In this document: positions 711 through 21,199 of the stretch, piece by piece
Layout of the letters: every line of letters starts with the position of its first letter
Position numbering within the stretch: the first letter of the stretch is position 1
The notes under the pieces: generated by a model
Seen by the model: only the letters and a program-made list of their open reading frames with translations
What the model was told of the DNA's origin: nothing
The model's database searches: none
Position numbers and translations under genes: made by a program
Source of the DNA: Clostridium beijerinckii
GTDB lineage: Bacteria; Bacillota; Clostridia; Clostridiales; Clostridiaceae
Direction of reading: 5' to 3'
Assembly (NCBI RefSeq): GCF_036699995.1
Contig: NZ_CP144906.1
Coordinates: 1,736,001 to 1,800,000 of the forward strand
Length of the DNA: 64,000 bases

Positions 711-2282
711 ATGGCTGATACAAAAAAAGAACAGGAACGTACAGAATTACATCGTACAATATGGAGTATTGCAAATGACCTACGAGGAAGTGTAGATGGA
801 TGGGACTTTAAACAATATGTACTTGGTATGCTATTTTATCGATATATATCAGAAAATATTACTAATTACATTAATAAAGGTGAACATGAGGCTGGAAATT
901 TAGAATTTGATTATGCAAAACTAGAGGATAGCGATGCAGAGCAGGCAAGAAAAGATTTAGTTGAAACAAAAGGATTTTTTATTCTTCCAAGTGAACTATT
1001 TGAAAATGTGCAAAAGGTTGCTGATAAAGATGAAAATCTAAATGAAACCTTAGAAAAAATCTTTAAAAATATTGAGACTTCAGCACAAGGTAGTGAAAGC
1101 GAATCGGATTTTAAAGGCTTGTTTGATGATATTGATGTTAATAGTAATAAATTAGGCGGCACAGTTGCAAAGAGAAACGAGAAACTTGTAAAACTGATGA
1201 ATGGTGTCAGCGAGATGAAATTGGGAGATTACAAGGATAATACCATTGATGCGTTTGGAGATGCTTATGAGTTTTTGATGGGTATGTATGCTTCCAATGC
1301 AGGAAAAAGCGGAGGCGAGTATTATACACCTCAAGAGGTTTCTGAGCTTTTAACACGTATCACTATTGTAGGCAAAACTGAGGTTAACAAGGTTTATGAT
1401 CCAGCTGTAGGGAGTGGATCGCTTCTTTTAAAGTTTGCAAAAATTCTAGGTAAAGATAATGTACGTCAAGGATTCTTTGGGCAGGAAATCAATATAACAA
1501 CATATAACCTTTGTCGTATAAATATGTTTTTGCATGATATTGATTATAATAAATTTGACATTGCTCACGGTGACACACTTACTGAAACTCAACAACATAG
1601 TGATAATGAACCTTTTGAAGCAATAGTATCAAATCCACCTTATTCTATTAAGTGGGAGGGGGATGCTAATCCACTCTTAATTAATGATCCGCGTTTTTCT
1701 CCTGCTGGAGTTCTTGCACCAAAGTCAAAGGCTGATTTAGCATTTATTATGCATTCCCTTTCTTGGCTTGCAACTAATGGAACTGCTGCAATTGTATGTT
1801 TCCCAGGAGTTATGTATCGTGGGGGTGCTGAGCAGAAAATTCGTAAATACTTGATTGATAATAATTATATCGATTGTATTATACAGCTTCCAGGTAATCT
1901 TTTTTACGGAACAAGTATAGCTACATGTATTATGGTGTTAAAGAAATCAAAGACAGAGAACAGCACATTATTCATTGACGCGTCAAAAGAATGTGTTAAG
2001 GTAACGAATAACAATAAGCTTACAGATGATAATATTAAAAATATTATAGATGCCTATACCGATCGAGTAGATATAGAATATTTTACAAAGGTTGTCCCTA
2101 ATGCTGATATTGAGAAACAAAGTTATAATCTTTCGGTTAGTACATATGTTGAGCAAGAGGATACAAGAGAAGTTATTGATATTAAAGTCCTCAATGAAGA
2201 AATCAAAGAAATTGTTGCCAAAGAGCAGGTTTTGCGTTATGAAATTGATAAGATTATCGCAGAAATTGAGGTGGATGAATGA
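711..2282 (+). CDS. hsdM: type I restriction-modification system, DNA methyltransferase subunit HsdM
   Basis: Encodes the N6-adenine methyltransferase subunit (523 aa). With HsdS it methylates the recognition site, and HsdR joins to cut unmodified DNA. The N-terminal HsdM_N helical domain is seen in ELHRTIWSIANDLRG. The AdoMet motif I is DPAVGSGSL (about residues 230-238) and the catalytic motif IV is NPPY (about 308-311). I chose ATG 711 because AGGAGG lies about 7 bases upstream; an upstream ATG at 690 has no such site. It overlaps hsdS by ATGA, implying translational coupling. First gene of the operon hsdM-hsdS-hsdR. Confidence 0.96.
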   Translation: MADTKKEQERTELHRTIWSIANDLRGSVDGWDFKQYVLGMLFYRYISENITNYINKGEHEAGNLEFDYAKLEDSDAEQARKDLVETKGFFILPSELFENVQKVADKDENLNETLEKIFKNIETSAQGSESESDFKGLFDDIDVNSNKLGGTVAKRNEKLVKLMNGVSEMKLGDYKDNTIDAFGDAYEFLMGMYASNAGKSGGEYYTPQEVSELLTRITIVGKTEVNKVYDPAVGSGSLLLKFAKILGKDNVRQGFFGQEINITTYNLCRINMFLHDIDYNKFDIAHGDTLTETQQHSDNEPFEAIVSNPPYSIKWEGDANPLLINDPRFSPAGVLAPKSKADLAFIMHSLSWLATNGTAAIVCFPGVMYRGGAEQKIRKYLIDNNYIDCIIQLPGNLFYGTSIATCIMVLKKSKTENSTLFIDASKECVKVTNNNKLTDDNIKNIIDAYTDRVDIEYFTKVVPNADIEKQSYNLSVSTYVEQEDTREVIDIKVLNEEIKEIVAKEQVLRYEIDKIIAEIEVDE

Positions 2283-9447: not shown

Positions 9448-10140
9448 ATGATGTATTCAAAAGAAGTTGAAGAAATGTGTGTACTTGCTAAAGGTCCTAA
9501 TCACGGATCAGCGCCAATTCCTGTAGAAGGAAGATGGGTTCAATCTAAAGAAGTAACTGATATATCAGGATTAACTCACGGAATAGGTTGGTGTGCACCA
9601 CAACAAGGAGCTTGTAAATTAACATTAAACGTTAAGGATGGTATAATCCAAGAAGCGTTAGTTGAAACAATTGGATGTTCAGGAATGACTCATTCAGCTG
9701 CTATGGCTTCAGAAATATTACCAGGAAAGACTATATTAGAAGCATTAAACACAGACTTAGTTTGTGACGCTATAAACACAGCTATGAGAGAATTATTCTT
9801 ACAAATCGTTTATGGAAGAACTCAAACTGCATTCTCAGAAGGTGGACTACCTATCGGAGCAGGACTTGAAGATTTAGGAAAAGGTTTAAGATCTCAAGTT
9901 GGTACTATGTACGGAACTTTAGCTAAAGGACCAAGATACTTAGAAATGGCTGAAGGTTATGTTACTGAAGTTGCTGTAGACGAAGATAAAGAAATCATCG
10001 GATATAAGTTTGTTAACTTAGGAAAAATGATGGAAAGTATTGCTAAAGGAATGGATGCTAACGAAGCATTAGAAAAAGCTAAAGGTCAATACGGAAGAGT
10101 TGCTGACGCTGCTGAATTATTAGACCCAAGACATAAATAA
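9448..10140 (+). CDS. NifU-like iron-sulfur scaffold-type protein paired with a GGGtGRT protein
   Basis: A 230-aa protein with a NifU/IscU-like fold: GACKLTLNVKDGIIQEALVE then ETIGCSGMTHSAAMASEIL, the position of the second scaffold cysteine. The segment that usually carries the first Cys and the conserved Asp reads GWCAPQQGACK, and no clear third Cys follows, so it may not be a standard Fe-S scaffold. ATG 9448 follows GGGAGGAGC. The stop is 25 bases before the GGGtGRT gene, so the two form one unit. Codons rich in C-ending forms (AAC, TTC, ATC) suggest high expression. Exact role unknown. Confidence 0.85.
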   Translation: MMYSKEVEEMCVLAKGPNHGSAPIPVEGRWVQSKEVTDISGLTHGIGWCAPQQGACKLTLNVKDGIIQEALVETIGCSGMTHSAAMASEILPGKTILEALNTDLVCDAINTAMRELFLQIVYGRTQTAFSEGGLPIGAGLEDLGKGLRSQVGTMYGTLAKGPRYLEMAEGYVTEVAVDEDKEIIGYKFVNLGKMMESIAKGMDANEALEKAKGQYGRVADAAELLDPRHK

Positions 10141-10165
10141 TTATTTGTAAAGGAGGATTTTTAAA

Positions 10166-11167
10166 ATGGCATTATTTGAAAGTTATGAAAGAAGAATTAA
10201 CCAAATCACTCCAGTATTAGAAAAATACGGAATGAAAACTATGGAAGATGCTAAAGCAGTTTGTGCTGAAGTTGGAGTAGATCCATATACAATCGTTAAG
10301 GAAACTCAACCAATCGCATTCGAAAACGCTGGATGGGCATACGTTTTAGGTGCTGCTATAGCAATAAAGAAGGGTTGCACTAAGGCTGCTGATGCTGCTG
10401 AAGCAATCGGAGAAGGATTACAAGCATTCTGTATCCCAGGTTCTGTTGCAGATGACAGAAAAGTTGGTTTAGGACACGGAAACTTAGGAGCTATGCTTTT
10501 AAGAGAAGAAACTAAATGTTTCGCATTCTTAGCAGGACACGAAAGCTTTGCTGCTGCTGAAGGTGCTATTAAAATAGCTGAAAAAGCAAACAGAGTAAGA
10601 AAAGAACCATTAAGAGTTATCTTAAACGGTCTTGGAAAAGATGCTGCATTCATTATTTCAAGAATTAATGGATTCACATATGTTCAAACTCAATTTGACT
10701 ACTACACTGGAGAAGTTAAAGTAGTTAAAGAAAAAGCATACTCAAACGGAGAAAGAGCAAAAGTAAGATGTTACGGTGCTGACGACGTTAGAGAAGGTGT
10801 TGCAATCATGCATAAAGAAGGAGTTGACGTATCAATCACTGGTAACTCAACTAACCCAACAAGATTCCAACATCCAGTTGCAGGAACATACAAGAAAGAA
10901 TGTATCGAACAAGGTAAGAAATACTTCTCAGTAGCATCAGGTGGTGGTACAGGAAGAACTCTTCACCCAGATAACATGGCTGCAGGTCCAGCTTCTTATG
11001 GTATGACTGATACTATGGGAAGAATGCACTCAGATGCGCAATTCGCAGGATCTTCATCAGTTCCAGCTCACGTTGAAATGATGGGTCTTATCGGAGCAGG
11101 TAACAACCCAATGGTTGGTATGACTGTTGCTGTAGCTGTTGCTGTTCAAGAAGCTTTAGCTAAATAG
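10166..11167 (+). CDS. GGGtGRT family protein
   Basis: A 333-aa protein named for its motif, visible here as SVASGGGTGRTLHPDN. The family is known in clostridia and other anaerobes next to a NifU-like gene, as in this window; the biochemical function is not known to me. No signal peptide or membrane segment is seen. A strong AAGGAGG ribosome site precedes ATG 10166. Codon use is biased to C-ending codons like the upstream partner. A clear terminator follows. Confidence 0.9.
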   Translation: MALFESYERRINQITPVLEKYGMKTMEDAKAVCAEVGVDPYTIVKETQPIAFENAGWAYVLGAAIAIKKGCTKAADAAEAIGEGLQAFCIPGSVADDRKVGLGHGNLGAMLLREETKCFAFLAGHESFAAAEGAIKIAEKANRVRKEPLRVILNGLGKDAAFIISRINGFTYVQTQFDYYTGEVKVVKEKAYSNGERAKVRCYGADDVREGVAIMHKEGVDVSITGNSTNPTRFQHPVAGTYKKECIEQGKKYFSVASGGGTGRTLHPDNMAAGPASYGMTDTMGRMHSDAQFAGSSSVPAHVEMMGLIGAGNNPMVGMTVAVAVAVQEALAK

Positions 11168-11316: not shown

Positions 11317-11875
11317 ATGATAAAAATGAATAGAAAATATATTGATAAAACTTTTGATGAATGCTTTCAACAATTTCTATTAGAGCATTGTACGTTGAAA
11401 AATATGAGTGAACATACTAAGAAATATTATATTGAGAACATGAAATACGGTTTTTATAAGTATTATGACAAAGATAAAAACATTAATTGTTCCAATAACA
11501 TTATCTTTAATTAATATTTAAAAAGAATATATTGAATATTTGCTAGTAGATTGTACTTATTTATTCTCAACAGTTCAAGGTGAAAAAATGAAAGAGAGAG
11601 GACTTACAAGAGCCATAGAAGACTACAACAAATCAAGAGAAATAGAACGTACATCAATTCATGCGTTTAGGCATTGGTATGCAAAAAAGGCAGTTATGAA
11701 CGGAATTAACATAGTTCAACTACAACATTTATTAGGGCATAGTAATTTAGAAATTTTGAAACATTACGTTGAAATGTTAACAGAAGATTTAAATTACGAA
11801 AATATTGCACAAAATCCTTTGGAATCTATTAAGTTGGAAAATTCTAAAGAGAAAAATATTAAGTTAAGAAAGTAG
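11317..11875 (+). pseudogene. tyrosine recombinase/integrase, internally deleted
   Basis: The N-terminal piece (11317-11514) resembles the SAM-like arm- and core-binding domain (FDECFQQFLLEHC...SEHTKKYYIENM) and stops. The C-terminal piece, in another frame (about 11522-11875), has the catalytic HAFRHWYAKK (His and Arg), LLGHSNLEI and the nucleophile region HYVEM. The middle of the protein, with the first catalytic Arg, is missing. An intact enzyme would be about 300-380 aa. The remnant shows that a site-specific element once sat here. Confidence 0.85.
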
Positions 11876-12724: not shown

Positions 12725-12840
12725 GGAAAAGGATAACTTGTTTTACTAGCCAAGTTATCCTTTAAAAGATTATTATATTTTTTTAATAAGTAGAAGGACA
12801 AATATTTAATAAGAAATTATCTTACATTATTATTATAGCA
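12725..12840 (+). repeat. hairpin repeat family, copy A (degenerate)
   Basis: Stem AAAGGATAACTTG (12728-12740) with CAAGTTATCCTTT (12751-12763), 13 bp perfect. The loop lacks the GGGG of other copies. Downstream is AGTAGAAGGACAAATATTTAA, where the ATG of other copies is replaced, then the family tail CTTACATTATTATTATAG. Confidence 0.7.
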
Positions 12841-12929
12841 AATACATATTACAAAATTATGCTAAAAATGTTAATTAAATATAAACAATTTCTTAAATAA
12901 ATTTAAGGCTTGGTAAACAATTGAAGAAA

Positions 12930-13045
12930 AAAACAACCTGCTTAGGGGAGCAGGTTGAACTTATAAAGGTAAAATACATTTACCAATACGGGGATAAAAT
13001 AATAATGCTTTAATTATTTTACAATTACTATTATAAAATACAAAT
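12930..13045 (+). repeat. hairpin repeat family, copy B
   Basis: Stem CAACCTGCT (12934-12942), loop TAGGGG, stem AGCAGGTTG (12949-12957). A second hairpin GGTAAA-ATACA-TTTACC (12968-12984) follows. Then GGGG, 11 bases, and the mini-ORF ATG CTT TAA (13005-13013), followed by the shared tail TTTTACAATTACTATTATAA. Closest to copy F. Confidence 0.85.
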
Positions 13046-13104
13046 ATTAAATAATTCTTTATTACTTATTAAATTAATGTGAATAAATTAATAATACACT
13101 ACAA

Positions 13105-13195
13105 AAAAAGATGACTTACTTTAGGGGGATAAGTCATCTTTGATAGGAGTTTTATAATATGTTCTAGTCACTTTACAATAATATTATAGGATAAA
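13105..13195 (+). repeat. hairpin repeat family, copy C
   Basis: Stem AAAGATGACTTA (13107-13118) with TAAGTCATCTTT (13130-13141); loop CTTTAGGGGGA. GGAG then leads to ATG TTC TAG (13159-13167) and the tail CTTTACAATAATATTATAGG. No second hairpin. Confidence 0.8.
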
Positions 13196-13237
13196 ATTGT
13201 AAATTGTGTCAATATATAAATTCTATAATAAAAAATA

Positions 13238-13380
13238 AAAAGGATAATCTGCTAGGGTGCAACAAATTATCCTGAATACTGTGTTATATATATTTAATAG
13301 GGGTAAATATATATGAAAAAAAGTTTTATCAACCTTATGTCTTTATTATAAGTGGTATTTGTGACAGTATTATGTCAAGT
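13238..13380 (+). repeat. hairpin repeat family, copy D with a 12-codon ORF
   Basis: Stem AGGATAATCTG (13241-13251) with CAAATTATCCT (13263-13273), one mismatch; loop includes TAGGG. GGGG precedes ATG 13313, which opens MKKSFINLMSLL (stop at 13349-13351). The tail TTTGTGACAGTATTATGTCA has the TTG..ACA/TGTCAA inverted repeat also seen in copy E. Confidence 0.8.
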
Positions 13381-13437
13381 TAATAAACTTAATATAAACA
13401 TTTTATAAAGAAAAATCAAATAATACAAATATGTTTA

Positions 13438-13487
13438 TATGTTCCTAGGTAAATTTATTCATAGAAATATATTTACCTAGAAACATA
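13438..13487. repeat. 17-bp inverted repeat (hairpin)
   Basis: TATGTTCCTAGGTAAAT (13438-13454) pairs with ATTTACCTAGAAACATA (13471-13487) with one mismatch. There is no T-run, so it is not a normal terminator. It lies between the repeat cluster and the TfoX-like gene. The rest of 13490-13688 shows nothing else I can name. Confidence 0.65.
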
Positions 13488-13688
13488 GATACAAAGAAAA
13501 ATATATACATATATAAATATTTATAGGAAACATGCGGGTTAGAGGTGAAATTTAAAAATGGTTTTTAAATAATAGCTATCTTTTGAATTATTATTTATGC
13601 TAAAATTATACATAAAAGGTATATTTATAAATGGTTGTGATATAAGCAATAGAGATGTTATAAAATGAGCTTAACGGGAGGAAAGAAA

Positions 13689-14021
13689 ATGGCTTCGAAT
13701 ATAGAGTTTGTAGAATATGTATGCGAACAGATAAGTGGTGCAGGAAGAATAACGTATAGAAAAATGTTTGGAGATTACGGAATCTACTGTAATCAAAAAA
13801 TAATAGGATTAATATGTGATAATCAATTCTTTTTAAAGATAACAAAAGGAGGCAGAAATTTATTATGTGAAGTTATAGAAGCCCCTGCTTATGAAGGAGC
13901 AAAACCTTCCTTTTTAATTGAATCTTTAGATGATAGAGACTATTTAACTGAAGTTGTATCAGCAACCTATGAAGAATTGCCAATGCAAAAAGTTAAAAAG
14001 AAAATAAAAGGGAAAAAATAA
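13689..14021 (+). CDS. TfoX/Sxy N-terminal domain protein
   Basis: A 110-aa protein matching the TfoX/Sxy N-terminal domain: FVEYVCEQISGAG, ITYRKMFGDYGIYCN and KPSFLIESLDD. In proteobacteria TfoX is a competence regulator; the stand-alone N-domain in Firmicutes has no proven role. I chose ATG 13689 because GGGAGGAAAG precedes it; an ATG at 13665 lacks such a site. The lysine-rich C-terminus (KKKIKGKK) is typical. It is followed closely by an SRPBCC gene and a SnoaL-like gene, perhaps one transcript. Confidence 0.85.
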   Translation: MASNIEFVEYVCEQISGAGRITYRKMFGDYGIYCNQKIIGLICDNQFFLKITKGGRNLLCEVIEAPAYEGAKPSFLIESLDDRDYLTEVVSATYEELPMQKVKKKIKGKK

Positions 14022-14035
14022 TAGGGGTGAGGAGT

Positions 14036-14452
14036 TTGAAAAGGGCGAGAGTAGCAGAAATAACAGCAGAATTTAATTCTAATATAAAATCGGTTTGGGA
14101 TATAGTAACAAATAATAATGATTATAGTTGGCGAAGTGATATTAAAAAAATTGAAATTTATAATAATGGTAAAGAATTTATTGAATACACTCATAACGGG
14201 AATGCTACAAAGTTTATTATATCCAAAAAGGATGAATATAGTGAGTATGCTTTTAATATGGAAAATAAAATGTTTACTGGATTTTGGAAAGGTAGTTTTT
14301 CAGAAACAGAAAATGGTGGAACTAAAATAGTATTTAAAGAAAATGTCTTTATTAAAAATCCTATTATTAGGATTCTTTCATATTTTTTTATGGATTTAGG
14401 CAAAATACAAAATACTTATATTTCAGATTTAAGAAAGAAGCTGGGTGAGTAA
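14036..14452 (+). CDS. SRPBCC (START/Bet v1-like) family protein
   Basis: About 138 aa, beginning KRARVAEITAEF and VWDIVTNNNDYSWRSDI, the entry strand and helix of polyketide-cyclase/SRPBCC ligand-binding folds, with a conserved FWKGSFSETENGGTKI turn. Such proteins bind small hydrophobic ligands. I favour TTG 14036, which has GGGGTGA at a good distance; GTG 14027 in the same frame is possible. Its stop overlaps the next ATG as TAATG, so translation of the two is probably coupled. Confidence 0.78.
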   Translation: MKRARVAEITAEFNSNIKSVWDIVTNNNDYSWRSDIKKIEIYNNGKEFIEYTHNGNATKFIISKKDEYSEYAFNMENKMFTGFWKGSFSETENGGTKIVFKENVFIKNPIIRILSYFFMDLGKIQNTYISDLRKKLGE

Positions 14453-14826
14453 TGAATATTAGAGAACAAATAACTAAAAAATATTTTAAATCTTGGTTAG
14501 AGAATAATTGTTCAGTATTAAAAGATATTTTTGATTTAAATGTAACTTATAGCGAATGTTATGGTCCTGAATATCATGGAATAGATACAGTTACAACATG
14601 GTTTAAAGAATGGAACAAATGTGGAAAAGTATTGGTTTGGGATATAAAGCAGTTTATTCAACAGGGAAATATAACAGTAGTTGAGTGGTATTTTAAATGC
14701 AGATATGATGGAGAAATTGAAGAATTTGATGGAGTATCGCTTATTGAATTCAATGATAATAATTACATCGTAAGCTTAAAAGAATTCCAATCTAAAATTC
14801 CACATTATTATCCTTATAGTAATTAA
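14452..14826 (+). CDS. SnoaL-like / nuclear transport factor 2 family protein
   Basis: A 124-aa cone-shaped NTF2-like fold: ITKKYFKSWLENN, DLNVTYSECYGPEYHG and the late VVEWYFKCRYDGE strand. Members are small enzymes or ligand binders; no catalytic role can be assigned. It starts within the stop of the SRPBCC gene (TAATG). A strong hairpin terminator lies about 110 bases downstream. Confidence 0.8.
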   Translation: MNIREQITKKYFKSWLENNCSVLKDIFDLNVTYSECYGPEYHGIDTVTTWFKEWNKCGKVLVWDIKQFIQQGNITVVEWYFKCRYDGEIEEFDGVSLIEFNDNNYIVSLKEFQSKIPHYYPYSN

Positions 14827-14866
14827 ATTATGGTTTATATTGATAAGTTACATATAAGGAGAAGCT

Positions 14867-14929
14867 ATGAAAAGTTCTGAAGGGCAGCTTAAAAATAGAG
14901 TTGTATGCAACTATAGAGTAGATAAATGA
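14867..14929 (+). CDS. possible 20-aa ORF with a strong ribosome site
   Basis: AAGGAGAAGCT lies just before ATG 14867, and the frame reads MKSSEGQLKNRVVCNYRVDK. It is between the SnoaL-like gene and its terminator. The ribosome site is better than chance, but the protein has no known family; it may be the start of a truncated gene. Confidence 0.35.
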   Translation: MKSSEGQLKNRVVCNYRVDK

Positions 14930-14938
14930 ATATATATT

Positions 14939-15000
14939 AAGTTAAATAAAGATTAATTACTAGAATTATTGAAATTAATCTTTATTTAACTTATTTTTTA
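14939..15000 (+). terminator. terminator after the TfoX-SRPBCC-SnoaL group
   Basis: A perfect 19-bp stem, AAGTTAAATAAAGATTAAT (14939-14957) with its complement at 14974-14992, then ATTTTTTAT. Confidence 0.85.
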
Positions 15001-15007
15001 TAAGTTG

Positions 15008-15036
15008 TTGACACATTCTTCCTAAAATGCTATTCT
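15008..15036 (+). promoter_or_regulatory. sigma-A type promoter of the padR operon
   Basis: TTGACA (15008-15013), 17-base spacer, TATTCT (15031-15036), about 22 bases before the padR start. Confidence 0.8.
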
Positions 15037-15049
15037 AACCATAGAATAG
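15030..15049. promoter_or_regulatory. probable PadR operator
   Basis: CTATTCTA-ACCA-TAGAATAG is a perfect 8-4-8 palindrome covering the -10 element and transcription start. Placement before a PadR gene fits autorepression; binding by this protein is inferred. Confidence 0.7.
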
Positions 15050-15057
15050 GTGGTGGG

Positions 15058-15588
15058 ATGAATATGACACAAATTGAGGTGATACTTTTATCACTTTTAT
15101 ATGATAAAGATTATTATGGATACGAATTTGAAACTGTAATAGAACAAAGAAATATGAGAGGGTGGACGGATATTGGATTTTCGTCAATCTATAATTCTTT
15201 GAATAAACTTGAAAAGAAAGGCTATATTGGTTCCAGATATGAAAAAGAATATGGTTCGCCTAAGAGAAAAGTATATTTTATAAAAGAAGAAACCAAAGTA
15301 ATTATTAGGAATCAGATTATAAAAATGATAAGCGAATATAAGAATGACCCTAGTGAATTTGATATAGGTTTATTATTTTCTTATTTAGTGACCAAGGAAG
15401 AATTTAAAAAGGCTTTAATTAACCATAAGGAAAATTTAAAAGATAGAAAAGAATTCTTAAATAAAAGATATAATCAGCATCCTACAGCGAAGGAGAGACC
15501 AAATATAAAAGCATTGTTTGAAAGACCAATAGCATTTATAGATACTGAGATTTCTTGGATTGAAAACTTTATTGATGAAAATTTTTAG
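15058..15588 (+). CDS. PadR family transcriptional regulator
   Basis: A 176-aa winged-helix regulator: ILLSLLYDKDYYGYEFE at the N-terminus, SSIYNSLNKLEKKGYI (recognition helix and wing) and a C-terminal dimerising helical part. PadR proteins usually repress nearby detoxification or transport genes and release on ligand binding. It heads an operon with a glycosyltransferase and a carboxymuconolactone decarboxylase-like protein. GGTGG precedes ATG 15058; ATG 15064 in frame is equally possible. Confidence 0.92.
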   Translation: MNMTQIEVILLSLLYDKDYYGYEFETVIEQRNMRGWTDIGFSSIYNSLNKLEKKGYIGSRYEKEYGSPKRKVYFIKEETKVIIRNQIIKMISEYKNDPSEFDIGLLFSYLVTKEEFKKALINHKENLKDRKEFLNKRYNQHPTAKERPNIKALFERPIAFIDTEISWIENFIDENF

Positions 15589-15618
15589 GCAAAGCTCATT
15601 ATAATGGGGGTGGTTTAT

Positions 15619-16947
15619 ATGGGAAATAAAAAAGTTTTACAAATTGTTTTTTCAAGCGTAATTTCAGATGCTGGGGAAGTAACACGTGCAATAGAAATAG
15701 CAGATGGAATTAGACGTTTCTGTCCAGAAGATTATGAAGTAGATATAACTTTTTTATCTACAGGAAGTGTTTTTGAGGATAAAGTAATTTCAAATGGATT
15801 TAAGATTTACAAATGCTTGCCATCGCTTCCGGGGATAGGATTTCGTGAAGATTTTAAAACTAAAGGCAGTAATATAATAGGAGATGTAAAGCTTGCAGGT
15901 GAATTGCTAAAAGGGGAGATAGATGCTTTTAATGACTTAAAACCAGATGTAGTTATATATGGATTTAATCCTATAGCAGGTCTTGCTAGAAGAATGGCTG
16001 ACAAGCCAATACCAGGAATTTGTTATATGCCGATACCTATGCAAAAAGACGTATATCTTACTACGTTAATGAAAGATGCCCCTGACAATATTAAACCTCT
16101 GACATACCTTCCCTTAAATTTTCGAAAAAGTATTATGAAATTAATTCCTAAAGCAATAAAGCTAAAAGTACCAGCTTTTGTTCAAACTAATATTATCGAA
16201 GCACTTAAGGAATTTCAGTGGAATGGAACTCCAGTTAAAACAGTGTTCGATATGCTTGAAGCAGATTTGACAATAATAAATGATCTTGAAGAATTTAATA
16301 AAGAGCATAAACTTCCTGATAATTTTAAGGTTGTAGGACCATTATATGCATCAGCATCAAGTAATTCAAAAATAGATGACAATATTTTAAGAACTTTTAA
16401 TTCAGAGAACAAAAAAATTAAAATTTTCTGTACGCTTGGAAGTTCTGGAAAAAAGGAATATTTATTTGAAGCAATAAAAGCTCTCACTCAAGACATAGGA
16501 AAGGAATGGAGCGCTGTGATTTTGGCACCTAAAGCTGTATGTCCAATTAAGGAAGCAATCGAATGTGCGGGAAATAGCCCTAATGTTTACATTACAGATG
16601 AATTTGTGCCAGCACCTTTGGTAAATGGACTTGCAGATGTGGTCGTATCTCATGGTGGGCAAGGAACAGTCCAAACTGCTATTGCAAGTGGTACTCCTAT
16701 TGTTGGATTTGCAATGCAGCCAGAACAACAGATAAATCTTGATAATGTAGTAATGAAAGGTGCTGGAATACGAATACCAATTAACAGATGGAATGCACCA
16801 AAAATACAATTGGCTATAAGAAATATAATTAAAGACACCTCATATAAAGAAAATATAAATACATTAAAAAAATTGTTGGAATCCTCAGATGGTAAGAAAA
16901 ATTCAGCACTTGCTATATGGGATTATATACTTAATAAGTTAAATTAA
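15619..16947 (+). CDS. UGT/MGT-type glycosyltransferase (GT1-like)
   Basis: A 442-aa GT-B glycosyltransferase. The C-terminal nucleotide-sugar signature is clear: SHGGQGTVQTAIASGTP followed by QPEQQINLDNV (His at about residue 345). Family knowledge: GT1 enzymes glycosylate small hydrophobic acceptors, including antibiotics and lipids. ATG 15619 has GGGGGTGG upstream; ATG 15604 would overlap that site. Its place behind padR suggests an inducible detoxification or glycolipid role, but the acceptor cannot be read from sequence. Confidence 0.87.
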   Translation: MGNKKVLQIVFSSVISDAGEVTRAIEIADGIRRFCPEDYEVDITFLSTGSVFEDKVISNGFKIYKCLPSLPGIGFREDFKTKGSNIIGDVKLAGELLKGEIDAFNDLKPDVVIYGFNPIAGLARRMADKPIPGICYMPIPMQKDVYLTTLMKDAPDNIKPLTYLPLNFRKSIMKLIPKAIKLKVPAFVQTNIIEALKEFQWNGTPVKTVFDMLEADLTIINDLEEFNKEHKLPDNFKVVGPLYASASSNSKIDDNILRTFNSENKKIKIFCTLGSSGKKEYLFEAIKALTQDIGKEWSAVILAPKAVCPIKEAIECAGNSPNVYITDEFVPAPLVNGLADVVVSHGGQGTVQTAIASGTPIVGFAMQPEQQINLDNVVMKGAGIRIPINRWNAPKIQLAIRNIIKDTSYKENINTLKKLLESSDGKKNSALAIWDYILNKLN

Positions 16948-16971
16948 CAAAAATGATTGGAGGATAAGAGA

Positions 16972-17292
16972 ATGAGTGATATGTCATCAGTTAGTAATGC
17001 GTTTAAAACTTTTATGAAAGAGGCACCAGAGTATCAGGAGATATGGATGGAGACAGTTCAAAAATTAGATTCAGTGAGTAAACTTGATTCGAAAACAGAG
17101 GAACTTGCATATATTGCAGTTTTAGCGTCTTCAAGACTTGAAGGTGGTCTGCCTTTCCATGTTAAACATGCAAAATCTCTTGGAGCAACAAGGGAAGAAA
17201 TAATAAGTGCTGTTTTAATCGGATTACCAGCCGTAGGTAATATAGTAATTCAATCATTACCAATAGCAATTAATGCGTATGATAGTGAATAA
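16972..17292 (+). CDS. carboxymuconolactone decarboxylase (CMD/AhpD-like) family protein
   Basis: A 106-aa all-helical CMD-type protein: ELAYIAVLASSRLEGGLPFH, HVKHAKSLGATREEI and VLIGLPAVGN. The AhpD-type CxxC redox pair is not present; the equivalent stretch reads EGGLPFH, so a thiol peroxidase-partner role is unlikely. GGAGGA precedes ATG 16972. Last gene of the padR operon. Confidence 0.83.
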   Translation: MSDMSSVSNAFKTFMKEAPEYQEIWMETVQKLDSVSKLDSKTEELAYIAVLASSRLEGGLPFHVKHAKSLGATREEIISAVLIGLPAVGNIVIQSLPIAINAYDSE

Positions 17293-17605
17293 ATATGGAG
17301 AATTTATTTTAGTTTCAAGTATTATTTTTATAGAATAAAATAATATTATATTAAAATAATAATATTTATAAAATATTACAGGTAACTAGATAATTTTTTA
17401 ACGAATATTTTATGTAAATTTAGATTAATAATGATTTTAAACGACATATAATTACAGAATAATTGATGTATTTTGTTATAAAACATCAATATATAGATGA
17501 AAATGTATTACGAAAATACGTGAAATTATGTTGGAATATGGTAGAATATAAGTGGGTATAAAAATAGGGTATAAAAAATATGGTTTGTGAGAGATGGTAA
17601 TCACC

Positions 17606-17642
17606 AAAAAAGGCTGAGTAGTTAATACTTAAGCCTTTTTTT
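17606..17642 (+). terminator. intrinsic terminator
   Basis: AAAAAAGGCT (17606-17615) and AAGCCTTTTTTT pair across a short loop. It lies 310 bases after the CMD gene. Confidence 0.75.
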
Positions 17643-17797
17643 GATATTGAATTATATGATTGTCAAATATTTAACTTATTATATGAATATAGAGCGATTT
17701 TGATATAAAGAATTACAAAATTCGCTATGCTTAAAGTGTTACACAATTTTATTAGAATTATTAGTTTTATATGAATTAAATATATAATAAATAATAA

Positions 17798-17932
17798 AAA
17801 GGATAACTTGTATAAGGGAATCAAGTTATCCTGAATACTGATTTGTTGTATATTTATTTAATAGGAGAACAATTAATATGAATTGTTTATAATATTATAA
17901 TAAAGGATAATTGTGGCAATATTATGTCAATT
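17798..17932 (+). repeat. hairpin repeat family, copy E
   Basis: Perfect 11-bp stem AGGATAACTTG (17800-17810) / CAAGTTATCCT (17822-17832), loop TATAAGGGAAT. AGGAG precedes ATG AAT TGT TTA TAA (17878-17892). The tail TTGTGGCAATATTATGTCAA matches copy D. Confidence 0.82.
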
Positions 17933-18047
17933 AAAAAAAGATTTCTATTAAAATTATTAGAAGATTAAGTACTAGTATACTTTATTCAAATAAAATGAAA
18001 ATAGTGAATAAATTGCATAATTCAACAAAATATGCTATCATATATCT

Positions 18048-18302
18048 ATGTTATGTATAGAGAATAATTACTATGTAGATGAGGAGTGTGGGTATTTTAT
18101 GAATATAAACAATGAACTTAAGGAAGTTATAAATGATAAATTGAAGAGAAATTCTGAGGTTGAATTTATCGCAGGATTGAAAGATATAACTTTATCTGAT
18201 ATTGATTATATTGAGAAGTTATCTGCAGTTAAAAATTTAAAATCAAAATTAAATTATCAAATTGTGGATAATACATATATAAAAATTGATTGCTCGTTGT
18301 AA
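18048..18302 (+). CDS. hypothetical protein, 84 aa
   Basis: Contains ELKEVINDKLKRNSEVEFIA and LSDIDYIEKLSAVKNLKSKL, with no family I recognise. ATG 18099 is an alternative start giving 67 aa; neither start has an ideal ribosome site, though GAGGAG lies upstream of 18099 at a long distance. A strong terminator about 100 bases downstream supports a transcript. Confidence 0.5.
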   Translation: MLCIENNYYVDEECGYFMNINNELKEVINDKLKRNSEVEFIAGLKDITLSDIDYIEKLSAVKNLKSKLNYQIVDNTYIKIDCSL

Positions 18303-18405
18303 AAAATATAGAGTTAAGTATTTTAATTAATTTTATATAAAGAATTATATTTTTGTATATGAGTATTATAATAAAGGGACTTAATAACATAAGCGAATGA
18401 TTTTT

Positions 18406-18450
18406 ACCCCTATAGGATAGAAAATTAAATTTTATCCTATAGGGGTATTT
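18406..18450 (+). terminator. strong hairpin terminator
   Basis: Perfect 14-bp stem ACCCCTATAGGATA (18406-18419) with TATCCTATAGGGGT (18433-18446), then ATTTAG. The T-run is short. Confidence 0.7.
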
Positions 18451-18569
18451 AGCGTTAGTAGCTTTATTTATGCTCTCCTTGATTTTATCTATTTTGTTTA
18501 ATTAATTGCATAACCAAAAGCTGCGCGTGGAAGAATACATTTATTAGAAGGAAGTTAGGAGGTGAATTT

Positions 18570-18779
18570 ATGGAAAAGCAACATCTGGCACCAAATGAGA
18601 CAATGCAAGTTCATGAAATGCTAAACTTCAAAACTATCTGCATGACTACATCAAAAATGATGGAAGGTGTAGTTTTTGATCAAGATCTAAAGGCATTATT
18701 AGAGAAGGATGTGCAACAATCTATAGCAGCAATAAGTAACTTACAAAATTTATTAAAAAAAGCTCCTAAAATAAGATGA
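18570..18779 (+). CDS. small CotF-like spore coat protein (N-terminal type)
   Basis: A 69-aa helical protein starting with APNETMQVHEMLNFKTICMT. It matches the short member of CotF-family pairs and is a clear paralogue of the protein at 20386. TTAGGAGGTG precedes ATG 18570. It is first in a five-gene group: small CotF-like, long CotF-like, zinc alcohol dehydrogenase, small CotF-like, long CotF-like. This mirrors the Bacillus subtilis yraG-yraF-adhB-yraE-yraD layout, which supports a sporulation-linked role. Confidence 0.83.
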   Translation: MEKQHLAPNETMQVHEMLNFKTICMTTSKMMEGVVFDQDLKALLEKDVQQSIAAISNLQNLLKKAPKIR

Positions 18780-18834
18780 GCATTTTGTATATAAATTGTT
18801 TGTAAAAATGCTAGAAAACAAAGGAGGGAAAATT

Positions 18835-19197
18835 ATGATTAATGATTATTTAGAAATAAGAAATGCAGAGGGAATGCCTAAACTTGTGGATGCGAATATG
18901 TCTCTAGGTTTTTTATTAAATGCCAAAAGTGGTGTAAGAAATTGTGCAATTGCATTGACTGAGGCAACAACTCCAGAAGTTAGAACTGTTCTAAAGAATC
19001 AGTTAAATGATGCAATTCTTATGCATGAACAAATATCAAATCTTATGGTAGAAAAAGGTTGGTTTCATCCTACAAACCTAGAAAAGCAATTTCAAATGGA
19101 TATTGAATCATCTACAACAATATCTCAAATTGCTAGTTTGGATTTATTTCCTGGAGACACAAGTAGAAGTGGTATGTTTGCAACACTAGAAAAATAA
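18835..19197 (+). CDS. CotF family spore coat protein
   Basis: A 120-aa helical protein: LGFLLNAKSGVRNCAIALTE, EATTPEVRTVLKNQLNDAI and a GWFHPTNLEKQF tail, the CotF (ferritin-like helical) pattern. AGGAGG sits before ATG 18835; the frame is open further upstream to 18796 but without a better start. Paralogue of the protein at 20634. Likely packed in or under the spore coat, by family. Confidence 0.85.
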   Translation: MINDYLEIRNAEGMPKLVDANMSLGFLLNAKSGVRNCAIALTEATTPEVRTVLKNQLNDAILMHEQISNLMVEKGWFHPTNLEKQFQMDIESSTTISQIASLDLFPGDTSRSGMFATLEK

Positions 19198-19216
19198 AAA
19201 AGGAGGTAATTATTTA

Positions 19217-20353
19217 ATGAAGGCTGTAACATTTCAAGGAATAAAGAATGTAAAAGTTAAAGAAGTCAAAGATCCTAAAATTCAAAAGGCTGACGATATT
19301 ATCGTTAAGCTTACAAGTACAGCAATATGTGGTTCTGATTTGCACTTAATTCATGATATGGTTCCAAACTTACCACAAGATTATATCATAGGACATGAAC
19401 CAATGGGAATTGTTGAAGAGGTAGGACCAGAAGTTACGAAATTGAAAAAAGGTGATAGAGTAATAGTGCCTTTTAATGTAAGTTGTGGAGAGTGTTTTTA
19501 TTGTAAACATGATTTAACATGTATGTGCGATAATTCAAATCCTAATGGAGAAAATGGAGGGTTTTTTGGATATTCAGATACATTTGGAGGATATCCAGGA
19601 GGCCAGGCAGAGTATATGAGAGTGCCTTATGCTAATTTTACTCCTTTCAAAATTCCAGAAGATTGTGAAGTAGAGGATGAAAAATTATTATTGATGTCAG
19701 ATGCAATGGGAACTGCTTATTGGAGCGTAGAAAATGCTGGGGTTAAGAAAGGTAATACTGTTATTGTGTTAGGGTGTGGACCTGTAGGACTGCTAGCACA
19801 AAAGTTCTGCTGGATGCACGGTGCAGAGAGAGTAATAGCTGTTGACTATATCGATTATAGGTTAGAGCATGCAAGGAGACATAATAAAGTTGAAACTGTT
19901 AATTTCGAACAACATGAGAATACAGGGGAATATCTAAGAGAAATCACTCATGGTGGAGCGGATGTAGTAATAGACTGTGTTGGAATGGATGGAAAAATGA
20001 CACCAATGGAGTTTTTAGGATCAGGTTTAAAACTTCAAAGTGGATCATTAGGTGGATTTGTTATAGCTACTCAGGCAGTGAGAAAAGGTGGAATGATTCA
20101 AGTTACCGGAGTTTATGGAGGAAGATATAACGCATTTCCTTTAGGAGATATAATGAATCGTAATATTAATATAAGAACAGGTCAAGCTCCAGTTATTCCA
20201 TATATGCCAACACTTTATAAATTACTTGCTGAAGGAAAAGTAGATCCAAGTGATATTATTACTCACAGATTGCCCCTTGATCAAGCGCCATATGGATATG
20301 AAGTATTTGATACAAAAACTGACGGATGTATTAAAGTTGTTCTAAAGCCATAG
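19217..20353 (+). CDS. adhB: zinc-dependent alcohol dehydrogenase (AdhB/formaldehyde dehydrogenase-like)
   Basis: A 378-aa medium-chain dehydrogenase/reductase. Catalytic zinc ligands are in CGSDLH (Cys 38) and GHEPMG (His 60, Glu 61). The structural-zinc cysteines are in CGECFYCKHDLTCMC. The NAD-binding motif is GCGPVGLLAQ. It oxidises or reduces an alcohol/aldehyde; the substrate is not visible, though the closest types are glutathione-independent formaldehyde dehydrogenases. AAGGAGG precedes ATG 19217. It lies between two CotF-like pairs, as AdhB does in B. subtilis, so it may act during sporulation. Confidence 0.9.
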   Translation: MKAVTFQGIKNVKVKEVKDPKIQKADDIIVKLTSTAICGSDLHLIHDMVPNLPQDYIIGHEPMGIVEEVGPEVTKLKKGDRVIVPFNVSCGECFYCKHDLTCMCDNSNPNGENGGFFGYSDTFGGYPGGQAEYMRVPYANFTPFKIPEDCEVEDEKLLLMSDAMGTAYWSVENAGVKKGNTVIVLGCGPVGLLAQKFCWMHGAERVIAVDYIDYRLEHARRHNKVETVNFEQHENTGEYLREITHGGADVVIDCVGMDGKMTPMEFLGSGLKLQSGSLGGFVIATQAVRKGGMIQVTGVYGGRYNAFPLGDIMNRNINIRTGQAPVIPYMPTLYKLLAEGKVDPSDIITHRLPLDQAPYGYEVFDTKTDGCIKVVLKP

Positions 20354-20385
20354 GAAAAGTTTATTTATTAAGGAGGGTAAAAAAT

Positions 20386-20604
20386 ATGAATGATCAAAGT
20401 ATTGCACCAAATGAAACTATGCAGTTGCATGAAATACTAACATTCAAAAATACATGTTTAACTAAAGCTCTTACTATGTCACCATTAGTTTCGGATGAAG
20501 AATTAAAATCAATATTGCAACAAGAGGTATCTGTATCAGAAAAACATATTGAAGAGTTGAGAAGTCTTATGGAGAAATCTAATATTGCGTCTTCAGAAGA
20601 ATAA
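20386..20604 (+). CDS. small CotF-like spore coat protein, second copy
   Basis: A 72-aa protein beginning APNETMQLHEILTFKNTCLT, clearly paralogous to the protein at 18570. AAGGAGG precedes ATG 20386. Acidic C-terminal tail (SSEE). Part of the coat-dehydrogenase-coat group. Confidence 0.83.
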   Translation: MNDQSIAPNETMQLHEILTFKNTCLTKALTMSPLVSDEELKSILQQEVSVSEKHIEELRSLMEKSNIASSEE

Positions 20605-20633
20605 ATATTTAATTTTAGAAAGGAGAGGGAATT

Positions 20634-20939
20634 ATGAATGGATTAATAGAAAATCTTACAGGAATGAGTAAAATGACTGATCAAGTTATAGCTACTGACT
20701 TTCTAATTTCGGCCAAGAGCGGAGTACAAAATTATGCAGTTGCGATAACAGAATCAATTTCATTAGAAGTTAGAACTATATTAAAGAAGCAATTACAAGA
20801 TGCAATTCAAACTCATGAAAAAATATCAAATTACATGATGGAGAAAGGCTATTACAACGCTTATGACTTAGGCGAGCAGTATAAGGTAGATATGGAAACA
20901 ACAGATACAACGTTGGGTCTTACAAAGAATTTAAAGTGA
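20634..20939 (+). CDS. CotF family spore coat protein, second copy
   Basis: A 101-aa paralogue of the protein at 18835 sharing FLISAKSGVQNYAVAITE and LEVRTILKKQLQDAIQTHEK. AGGAGAGGG precedes ATG 20634, 30 bases after the previous stop. It is shorter at the C-terminus than its paralogue. Last gene of the group. Confidence 0.83.
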   Translation: MNGLIENLTGMSKMTDQVIATDFLISAKSGVQNYAVAITESISLEVRTILKKQLQDAIQTHEKISNYMMEKGYYNAYDLGEQYKVDMETTDTTLGLTKNLK

Positions 20940-20983
20940 TTTAGAGAACATATGTGACTCAATATAATAAAATATGATAGAAA

Positions 20984-21092
20984 AAAAGAATGACTTATTT
21001 AGGGGAATAAGCCATTCTAAAATACTATTTATAAGTATTTTTAAATTAGGGTTAATAATAATGCTTTAACTACTTTACAAATATTATTATAA
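20984..21092 (+). repeat. hairpin repeat family, copy F
   Basis: Stem AGAATGACTTATT (20987-20999), loop TAGGGG, stem AATAAGCCATTCT (21006-21018), one mismatch. A second hairpin AAAATACT/AGTATTTT follows. AGGG then leads to ATG CTT TAA (21061-21069) and CTACTTTACAAATATTATTA. It matches copy B in every part. Confidence 0.85.
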
Positions 21093-21199
21093 TAGATTTA
21101 TGTTACAGAAATGTTACAGAATGATAAATTTATTATAAATAATCAATAAAAAGTTGATTAAGAAAATTAAAATTTTAGTAATAAGGGGGAGTACAACTG

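Follow-up and report, generated by a model that had tools for sequence, protein, structure and literature searches.

Three groups of small RNAs (sRNAs) that act at ribosome binding sites come close to the elements described here. The csRNAs of the CiaRH regulon in Streptococcus occur as several siblings per genome, with a direct-repeat response-regulator box ahead of the promoter (PMC3091779). They start about 7 nt after the −10 hexamer, end in a terminator and carry sequences complementary to the Shine–Dalgarno (SD) sequence and the AUG (PMC3091779, PMC4507080, PMC8186281). Both the csRNAs and the LhrC RNAs of Listeria occlude the SD and AUG of their targets (PMC3091779, PMC8186281, PMC4507080, PMC4132741). 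RsaE/RoxS pairs with ribosome binding sites through C-rich regions and is controlled by the response regulators SrrA/ResD (PMC4409812). We count these traits as likenesses to a family of intergenic elements in Clostridium beijerinckii, six of which (copies A to F) lie in a 64,000-nt stretch of its genome (contig NZ_CP144906.1, positions 1,736,001 to 1,800,000; called the window here, with positions counted from its first letter). A sequence-only reading of the window had described them as plus-strand hairpins, each with a short open reading frame (mini-ORF). Judged from their sequence, the six look like minus-strand sRNA-like genes, not mini-genes. They probably belong to a multicopy "sibling" family of trans-acting sRNAs that block translation initiation.

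All six hairpins were confirmed, and their stems pair although the stem sequences differ. The A-run in front of each hairpin on the plus strand is the U-run behind it on the minus strand, so the strand had been misread. Read on the minus strand, each element is laid out like an sRNA gene, with a start region, a predicted RNA of 75–110 nt and an intrinsic terminator; the RNA opens with a 5′ part that carries a C-rich motif, followed in some copies by a middle hairpin, and closes with the hairpin and the U-run. The other landmarks of the earlier description find their places in this layout. The AGGG loop does exist, as the complement of a C-rich terminator loop, and the shared tail is likewise present and becomes the −10 and start region of the minus strand. 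What had been taken for an SD and the ATG of a mini-ORF is the complement of a minus-strand seed, CAU-N6–10-CCCC/CUCC. With a loop limit of 8, a terminator scan called three minus-strand copies (B, D and F); the loops of A, C and E exceed this limit. The scan gave 6 sites in 9.5 kb (both strands), with 2.4 expected from shuffles, and the other 3 sites are unrelated. Folding z-scores for seven RNAs (the six copies and an orthologue beside metG) ranged from −3.4 to −7.1. None of 200 shuffles folded as well for six of these RNAs, and 2 of 200 did so for copy C.

The copies, all on the minus strand, differ in type and completeness, and their seeds are predicted from the sequence. Copies B and F are of the core type. 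Copy F (20980..21078) has its terminator hairpin at 20987–21018 with a C-rich loop, a seed at 21048..21063 (anti-GGG, anti-AUG), and a direct-repeat box (CTGTAAC-N4-CTGTAAC) with the −10 at 21086..21119, scoring 19.4. In copy B (12926..13022) the terminator hairpin (12934–12957) has the loop CCCCTA, and the seed at 12990..13007 is the complement of GGGG...AATAATG, the former SD and ATG; a direct-repeat box is not recognisable. Copy D (13230..13337) defines a D type. Its terminator hairpin is at 13241–13273, its box and −10 (TTGACATAATACTGTCACA, TATAAT) are at 13345..13378 with a score of 25.6, and its seed at 13300..13327 is the complement of GGGG...ATGAAAAAAAG, opposite which the 12-codon ORF of the earlier description begins. 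Copy E (17789..17890; terminator hairpin at about 17800–17832) has a box and −10 at 17897..17930 (score 25.7) and an anti-GGAG, anti-AUG seed at 17864..17880. The seed of copy C (13102..13176) is of the same kind (13146..13161), with a C-rich loop in its hairpin at about 13107–13141; its promoter at 13183..13212 matches TTGACA-18-TATAAT at 12/12 positions and is without the direct-repeat box. Copy A (12725..12825) is degenerate: it keeps a terminator-like hairpin (12728–12763), has neither C-rich loop nor box, and looks decayed. Copies A and B, with neither box nor consensus promoter, may be decaying.

The proposal that these elements are shaped at the RNA level held up, since an alignment fitted to model R1/R2 revealed covariation in the terminator stem. 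All 14 pairs of the terminator helix show changes on both sides, and of the 1026 cells that the two helices span in 50 distinct rows, 93.1% are paired, compared with 71.3% in shuffles. The covariation score is 0.597 against 0.176 for shuffled and at most 0.128 for slid controls, an effect whose size is flattered because the alignment was fitted to the model. Doubtful rows (L078:4498-4594:+, L031:1335-1417, L002:1770-1838 and L138:860-952) were kept in the alignment. The 5′ helix of model R1/R2, with double changes in 1/7 pairs, is not claimed. Many copies keep a CCC-type loop while the letters of the stem vary. We also noted that in D-type terminator hairpins (loci L280, L284, L297, L304 and others) arm and loop retain a CATTCATATTCCCC-like stretch, which might be another anti-start motif.

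The promoter region carries a direct repeat with the consensus TTGWCAY-N4-HTGWCAYA at a fixed distance from the −10. When 56 distinct regions upstream of core copies were aligned, the order was TTGACAC-N4-NTGACATA, about 10 letters, TANNAT, 6–7 nt and the start (+1); in 54 of them the box falls at a single position or deviates from it by one base. The linkage of box and RNA was also seen from the RNA side. Sixteen of 17 examined hits of a covariance model that was made from 54 aligned matches and includes no promoter had a box scoring above 14 with the position weight matrix (PWM), 15 of these at 40–41 nt; four of the 17 loci are core copies of the kind from which the PWM was derived. With a strict box pattern, 26 sites were found in six large genomes and one site in the reversed control. 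All 26 are followed by a terminator and, at the expected place, by a −10-like hexamer; 23 have CCC in the seed, 14 have CAT with a C-run, and in 16 the terminator loop that the script selected contains CCC. Within the genus, every strict box site that was examined heads an sRNA-like gene. The C. beijerinckii genome has four exact sites, all heading such RNAs, and eight sites with one mismatch, three of which head such RNAs and one of which overlaps an exact site. A scan of 25 genomes with a slightly stricter pattern returned 12 sites. Eleven lie in genomes of the genus, each in front of an RNA of this kind (non-core in two cases), and the twelfth, from another family, is without such a layout. 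In a systematic sample of 1.18 Mb, three sites scored above 17; two of them head sRNAs not found before, and the third precedes a short orphan gene.

Box-like sites do occur before protein genes in this genome (loci L134, L141 and L258, near 642.3, 3726.4 and 3667.4 kb), where the genes encode a lipoprotein-like protein, a phosphotransferase system (PTS) EIIA-man protein and a 94-residue orphan. They may be chance matches or a small coding part of the regulon. Two further arrangements were observed. Locus L073 (at about 657, plus strand), and also L163, carries another box, some 270 nt ahead of the promoter region of the core RNA; an additional RNA containing a CTCCCCC stretch may follow this box. 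In genome G011, a box-bearing terminated RNA (L122, about 1501–1630, plus strand) has a different body with repeated TTAAACGAC and is without a C-run seed.

The family is larger than the six copies first counted, and the expectation that further members would turn up elsewhere in the genome and in related clostridia proved right. A DNA search of the C. beijerinckii genome with copy B found four places, namely B, F and two outside the window. Box searches, the model and the systematic sample together bring the number to at least 16, that is, the six in the window and ten further places (at about 72.3, 1518.8, 1890.1, 2376.2, 2532.8, 2720.2, 3790.8, 3860.0, 4126.9 and 4128.5 kb). The copies had at first seemed to share one strand of the genome, but plus-strand copies were then found as well. 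Two further degenerate copies may exist in this genome. Possible degenerate copies at L138 (860–952, minus) and L002 (1770–1838, minus) lie near intact ones, which suggests local duplication and decay.

With up to three mismatches allowed, 32 of the 36 genomes searched from the genus contain the 25-nt core at the 5′ end of the core type, 29 of them exactly; it is absent from G006, G009, G012 and G034, and the reversed control gave 0 hits. None of the 23 genomes searched from other genera matched at this setting. Among named genomes, a scan returned 52 stretches; almost all carry the label Clostridium, and the species include C. beijerinckii, C. puniceum, C. chromiireducens, C. tertium and C. 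paraputrificum. The stretch around copy F is identical in genome G033, and the copy F RNA is identical in C. beijerinckii HUN142 (L058). The covariance model was searched with stricter filters against 146 genomes of the bacterial family; among the matches listed, 16 genomes are represented, of which 13 belong to the genus and 3 to a single sister genus. Copy number differs between genomes. In all eight loci examined for gene order, the core orthologue and a methionyl-tRNA synthetase gene (metG) are convergent and about 100 nt apart; the identity of this gene was confirmed by protein family for L074 only. The gene on its other side is variable (Na/Pi cotransporter, CRP-like regulator, TatD-like and others).

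Many of the seeds look like mirror images of translation start sites, and to this extent the earlier suggestion of a link to translation is supported, whereas translation of the mini-ORF is not. We examined 69 representatives of 121 distinct box sites scoring above 14; the clustering was loose, so that the representatives are still related and include a few gene or chance sites. Fifty-eight have a C-run, preceded 5–11 nt upstream by CAT in 48 and without CAT in ten. Counted by occurrence, 48 of 50 CATs stand 6–10 nt before the C-run. The same spacing of 6–10 nt is found in 80% of the 682 ATG start regions of the C. beijerinckii genome that have a G-rich motif. Fourteen seeds with CAT were selected to illustrate the diversity. 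Predicted pairing was assessed on 986 start regions by counting those below −18 kcal mol−1, with five shuffled versions of each seed and internal ATGs as controls. Three D-type seeds reached 68, 96 and 152 start regions (12–65 for shuffled seeds, 5–11 for internal ATGs), and the E seed reached 49 (9–27 shuffled). The 60 best start regions of the D-type seeds are enriched in signal-peptide-like N-termini (P=0.0017, 0.0002 and 0.043, uncorrected) and in MKK starts, because the D-type seed contains CUUUUUUUCAU; no such enrichment was seen for the top start regions of the other five seeds. The D-type motif pattern had 18 hits in 10 of 59 genomes of the genus. Fourteen of them, in six genomes, have a box at 51–52 nt with scores from 6.2 to 25.6, and four, in four other genomes, have none.

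A typical gene comprises a direct-repeat activator box, a −10 about 10 bp downstream and a start 6–7 nt further on. Its predicted RNA begins with a seed whose C-run is the anti-SD, often with CAU 6–10 nt upstream as the anti-AUG, and ends, after an optional middle hairpin, in an intrinsic terminator, the loop of which often holds a second C-rich motif. From this layout we infer transcription and repression along the following lines. One DNA-binding regulator would co-activate the box-bearing copies by sitting on the direct repeat and recruiting polymerase to the −10. The seed, and perhaps also the terminator loop, would then pair with the SD and AUG of a target and block ribosome loading. Different seeds among the copies would widen the set of targets, and the D type would favour messages starting AUG-AAA-AAA (MKK), many of them for exported proteins. 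Plausible target start regions, all of them candidates with none confirmed, are those of a DUF5105 lipoprotein (Pfam), a flotillin-like and an SPFH-like protein, the last two named by eye.

Several observations weigh against trans-acting repression under a common box. Three of the six window copies (A, B and C) are without the box. Two of the eight one-mismatch sites precede genes (lipoprotein-like, 22.6; PTS EIIA, 19.4), two others score below the PWM cut of 14, and sites with two mismatches are not in excess in the C. beijerinckii genome (144, control 177). CAT with a C-run is found in just 14 of 26 seeds of the strict box set, which is less redundant than the 69 representatives. Four seeds paired with start regions no better than their shuffled versions, in which the C-run was kept: core (26 vs 17–31), L133 (40 vs 14–47), L138 (5 vs 1–6) and C (10 vs 4–15). 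Near-perfect complements of the core seed numbered 21 in the C. beijerinckii genome against 20 for reversed-pattern controls, and at least four of the 21 are the family's own loci. No gene recurred among the 24 loci read in the search for core-seed targets. The regulator is most likely of the OmpR type, an assignment drawn from the direct-repeat layout and from analogy. Generic pairing with start sites does not explain the strongest conservation in the family, that of the 25-nt core, which may stem from an RNA-binding partner or from a small number of conserved targets, perhaps just one.

The failure of the core seed to outdo shuffled seeds would also fit RNAs that act as sponges for a protein or another RNA (a CsrA type with GGA loops on the plus strand, or a C-rich one on the minus strand) and not as repressors of messages, as would the two C-rich single-stranded motifs per RNA and the many copies. 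The minus-strand motif, however, is CCCC and not GGA, and C-run and CAT keep the SD–AUG spacing in many seeds; we consider sponges unlikely. It is very unlikely that the elements are plus-strand genes for tiny leader peptides or toxin-like proteins with the hairpin as a 5′ regulatory structure. Five copies (B–F) do show an SD-like G-run and ATG on the plus strand, and 8 of 96 copies have in common a frame of 12 codons that in most cases is MKKSFIN-like. But the frame is two codons long in 71 of the 96, which are box-bearing copies with a CAT seed, and the D-type copies split 7:7 between spacers differing by one base, which shifts the frame. Neither length nor frame of the mini-ORF is thus kept. 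The D-type stop, moreover, derives from the minus-strand −10 box, and the promoter-like and terminator signals fit the minus strand.

As had been noted, copies A–D stand in tandem within about 660 bp and adjoin an integrase relic; the relic has a Phage_integrase match (PF00589, 11540–11875). Copy number varies among genomes. Both facts would suit a mobile family without regulatory function, akin to miniature inverted-repeat transposable elements (MITEs) or transposon ends. We find this very unlikely. Each unit has its own start region and terminator, box, −10 and terminator come in a fixed order, the stems covary around a conserved loop, and the core orthologue is syntenic with the methionyl-tRNA synthetase gene in 8/8 loci; terminal repeats and target duplications were not systematically searched. 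Membership in the Pho (phosphate-starvation) regulon through a PhoB-like box is distinctly improbable. The box resembles the Escherichia coli Pho box in sequence and geometry, and a Na/Pi-cotransporter-like gene lies beside the orthologue in two of the eight loci (family confirmed for L074 only). Yet the same box was not found upstream of pstS: all 30 fetched loci, taken as 1,560-nt segments that include the first 60 nt of the pstS match, scored at most 4.2 with the box PWM (99th percentile of shuffles, 6.1), compared with 19–41 for core sRNA promoters.

Trans-acting sRNAs remain our preferred reading of the family, which is a member of neither the csRNAs nor LhrC by box or Rfam test. It shares with the csRNAs an intergenic promoter followed by an intrinsic terminator (26/26 strict sites) and SD/AUG complementarity (CAT before the C-run in 48/58 seeds, 14/26 in the strict set). 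It differs from them in the box (TTTAAG-N5-TTTAAG for CiaR, a pattern these promoters did not match), in number (2–6 csRNA genes in a streptococcal genome, at least 16 copies in that of C. beijerinckii) and in scope, in that CiaR controls coding genes too while the strict box sites headed sRNAs only in the genomes examined. With LhrC it shares several UCCC-type motifs, including one in the terminator loop (seed 23/26, loop 16/26), but the LisR element of LhrC1–5 is upstream of −53 (PMC4132741), and seeds vary between the Clostridium copies. Likewise, roxS has its conserved ResD-like site near −65 (PMC4409812), and the Clostridium family is multicopy with varied seeds and no Rfam match at threshold. 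The only Rfam family at gathering threshold in the window is a tRNA, in line with the sequence-only reading, which knew of no described family that fits. No element matched an Rfam 15 family (RsaE, Clostridiales-1 and others) at gathering. Below threshold, the best match of an element was RefA9 (27.4 bits, gathering 49) on the plus strand of copy C, and the LhrC model (RF00616) gave 22.8 bits for copy B and 7.5 for E (gathering 110). We found no description of the family in the literature searched; an earlier prediction of the core RNA is possible, for instance in a 2011 survey of clostridial sRNAs in mBio.

Among the neighbouring genes, the integrase-like gene is in two pieces (11317–11875), of which the second is the Phage_integrase match and the first is without a Pfam match. 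A Coat F domain protein (20634–20939) adjoins copy F, and a DUF3231-like protein, under the cut-off, lies at 20386–20604. The region 9448–11167 encodes a protein with a sub-threshold NifU_N match and then a GGGtGRT-family protein.

More tentatively, and with more doubt than conviction, we propose that the genus and one sister genus have a dedicated regulator whose strong sites serve almost solely sRNA genes. A bank of at least 16 copies, mirroring core, GGAG and MKK starts, would be fired together and would damp classes of messages, those for exported proteins among them. If the sRNA reading is true, the genus Clostridium, with its solvent producers and gut species, would gain a conserved multicopy sRNA regulon that is without an Rfam family, and response-regulator-type promoters driving C-rich anti-SD RNAs would have a further Gram-positive case. 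Varied seeds on a constant frame of promoter and terminator may be a route by which the target range of sRNAs evolves through duplication.

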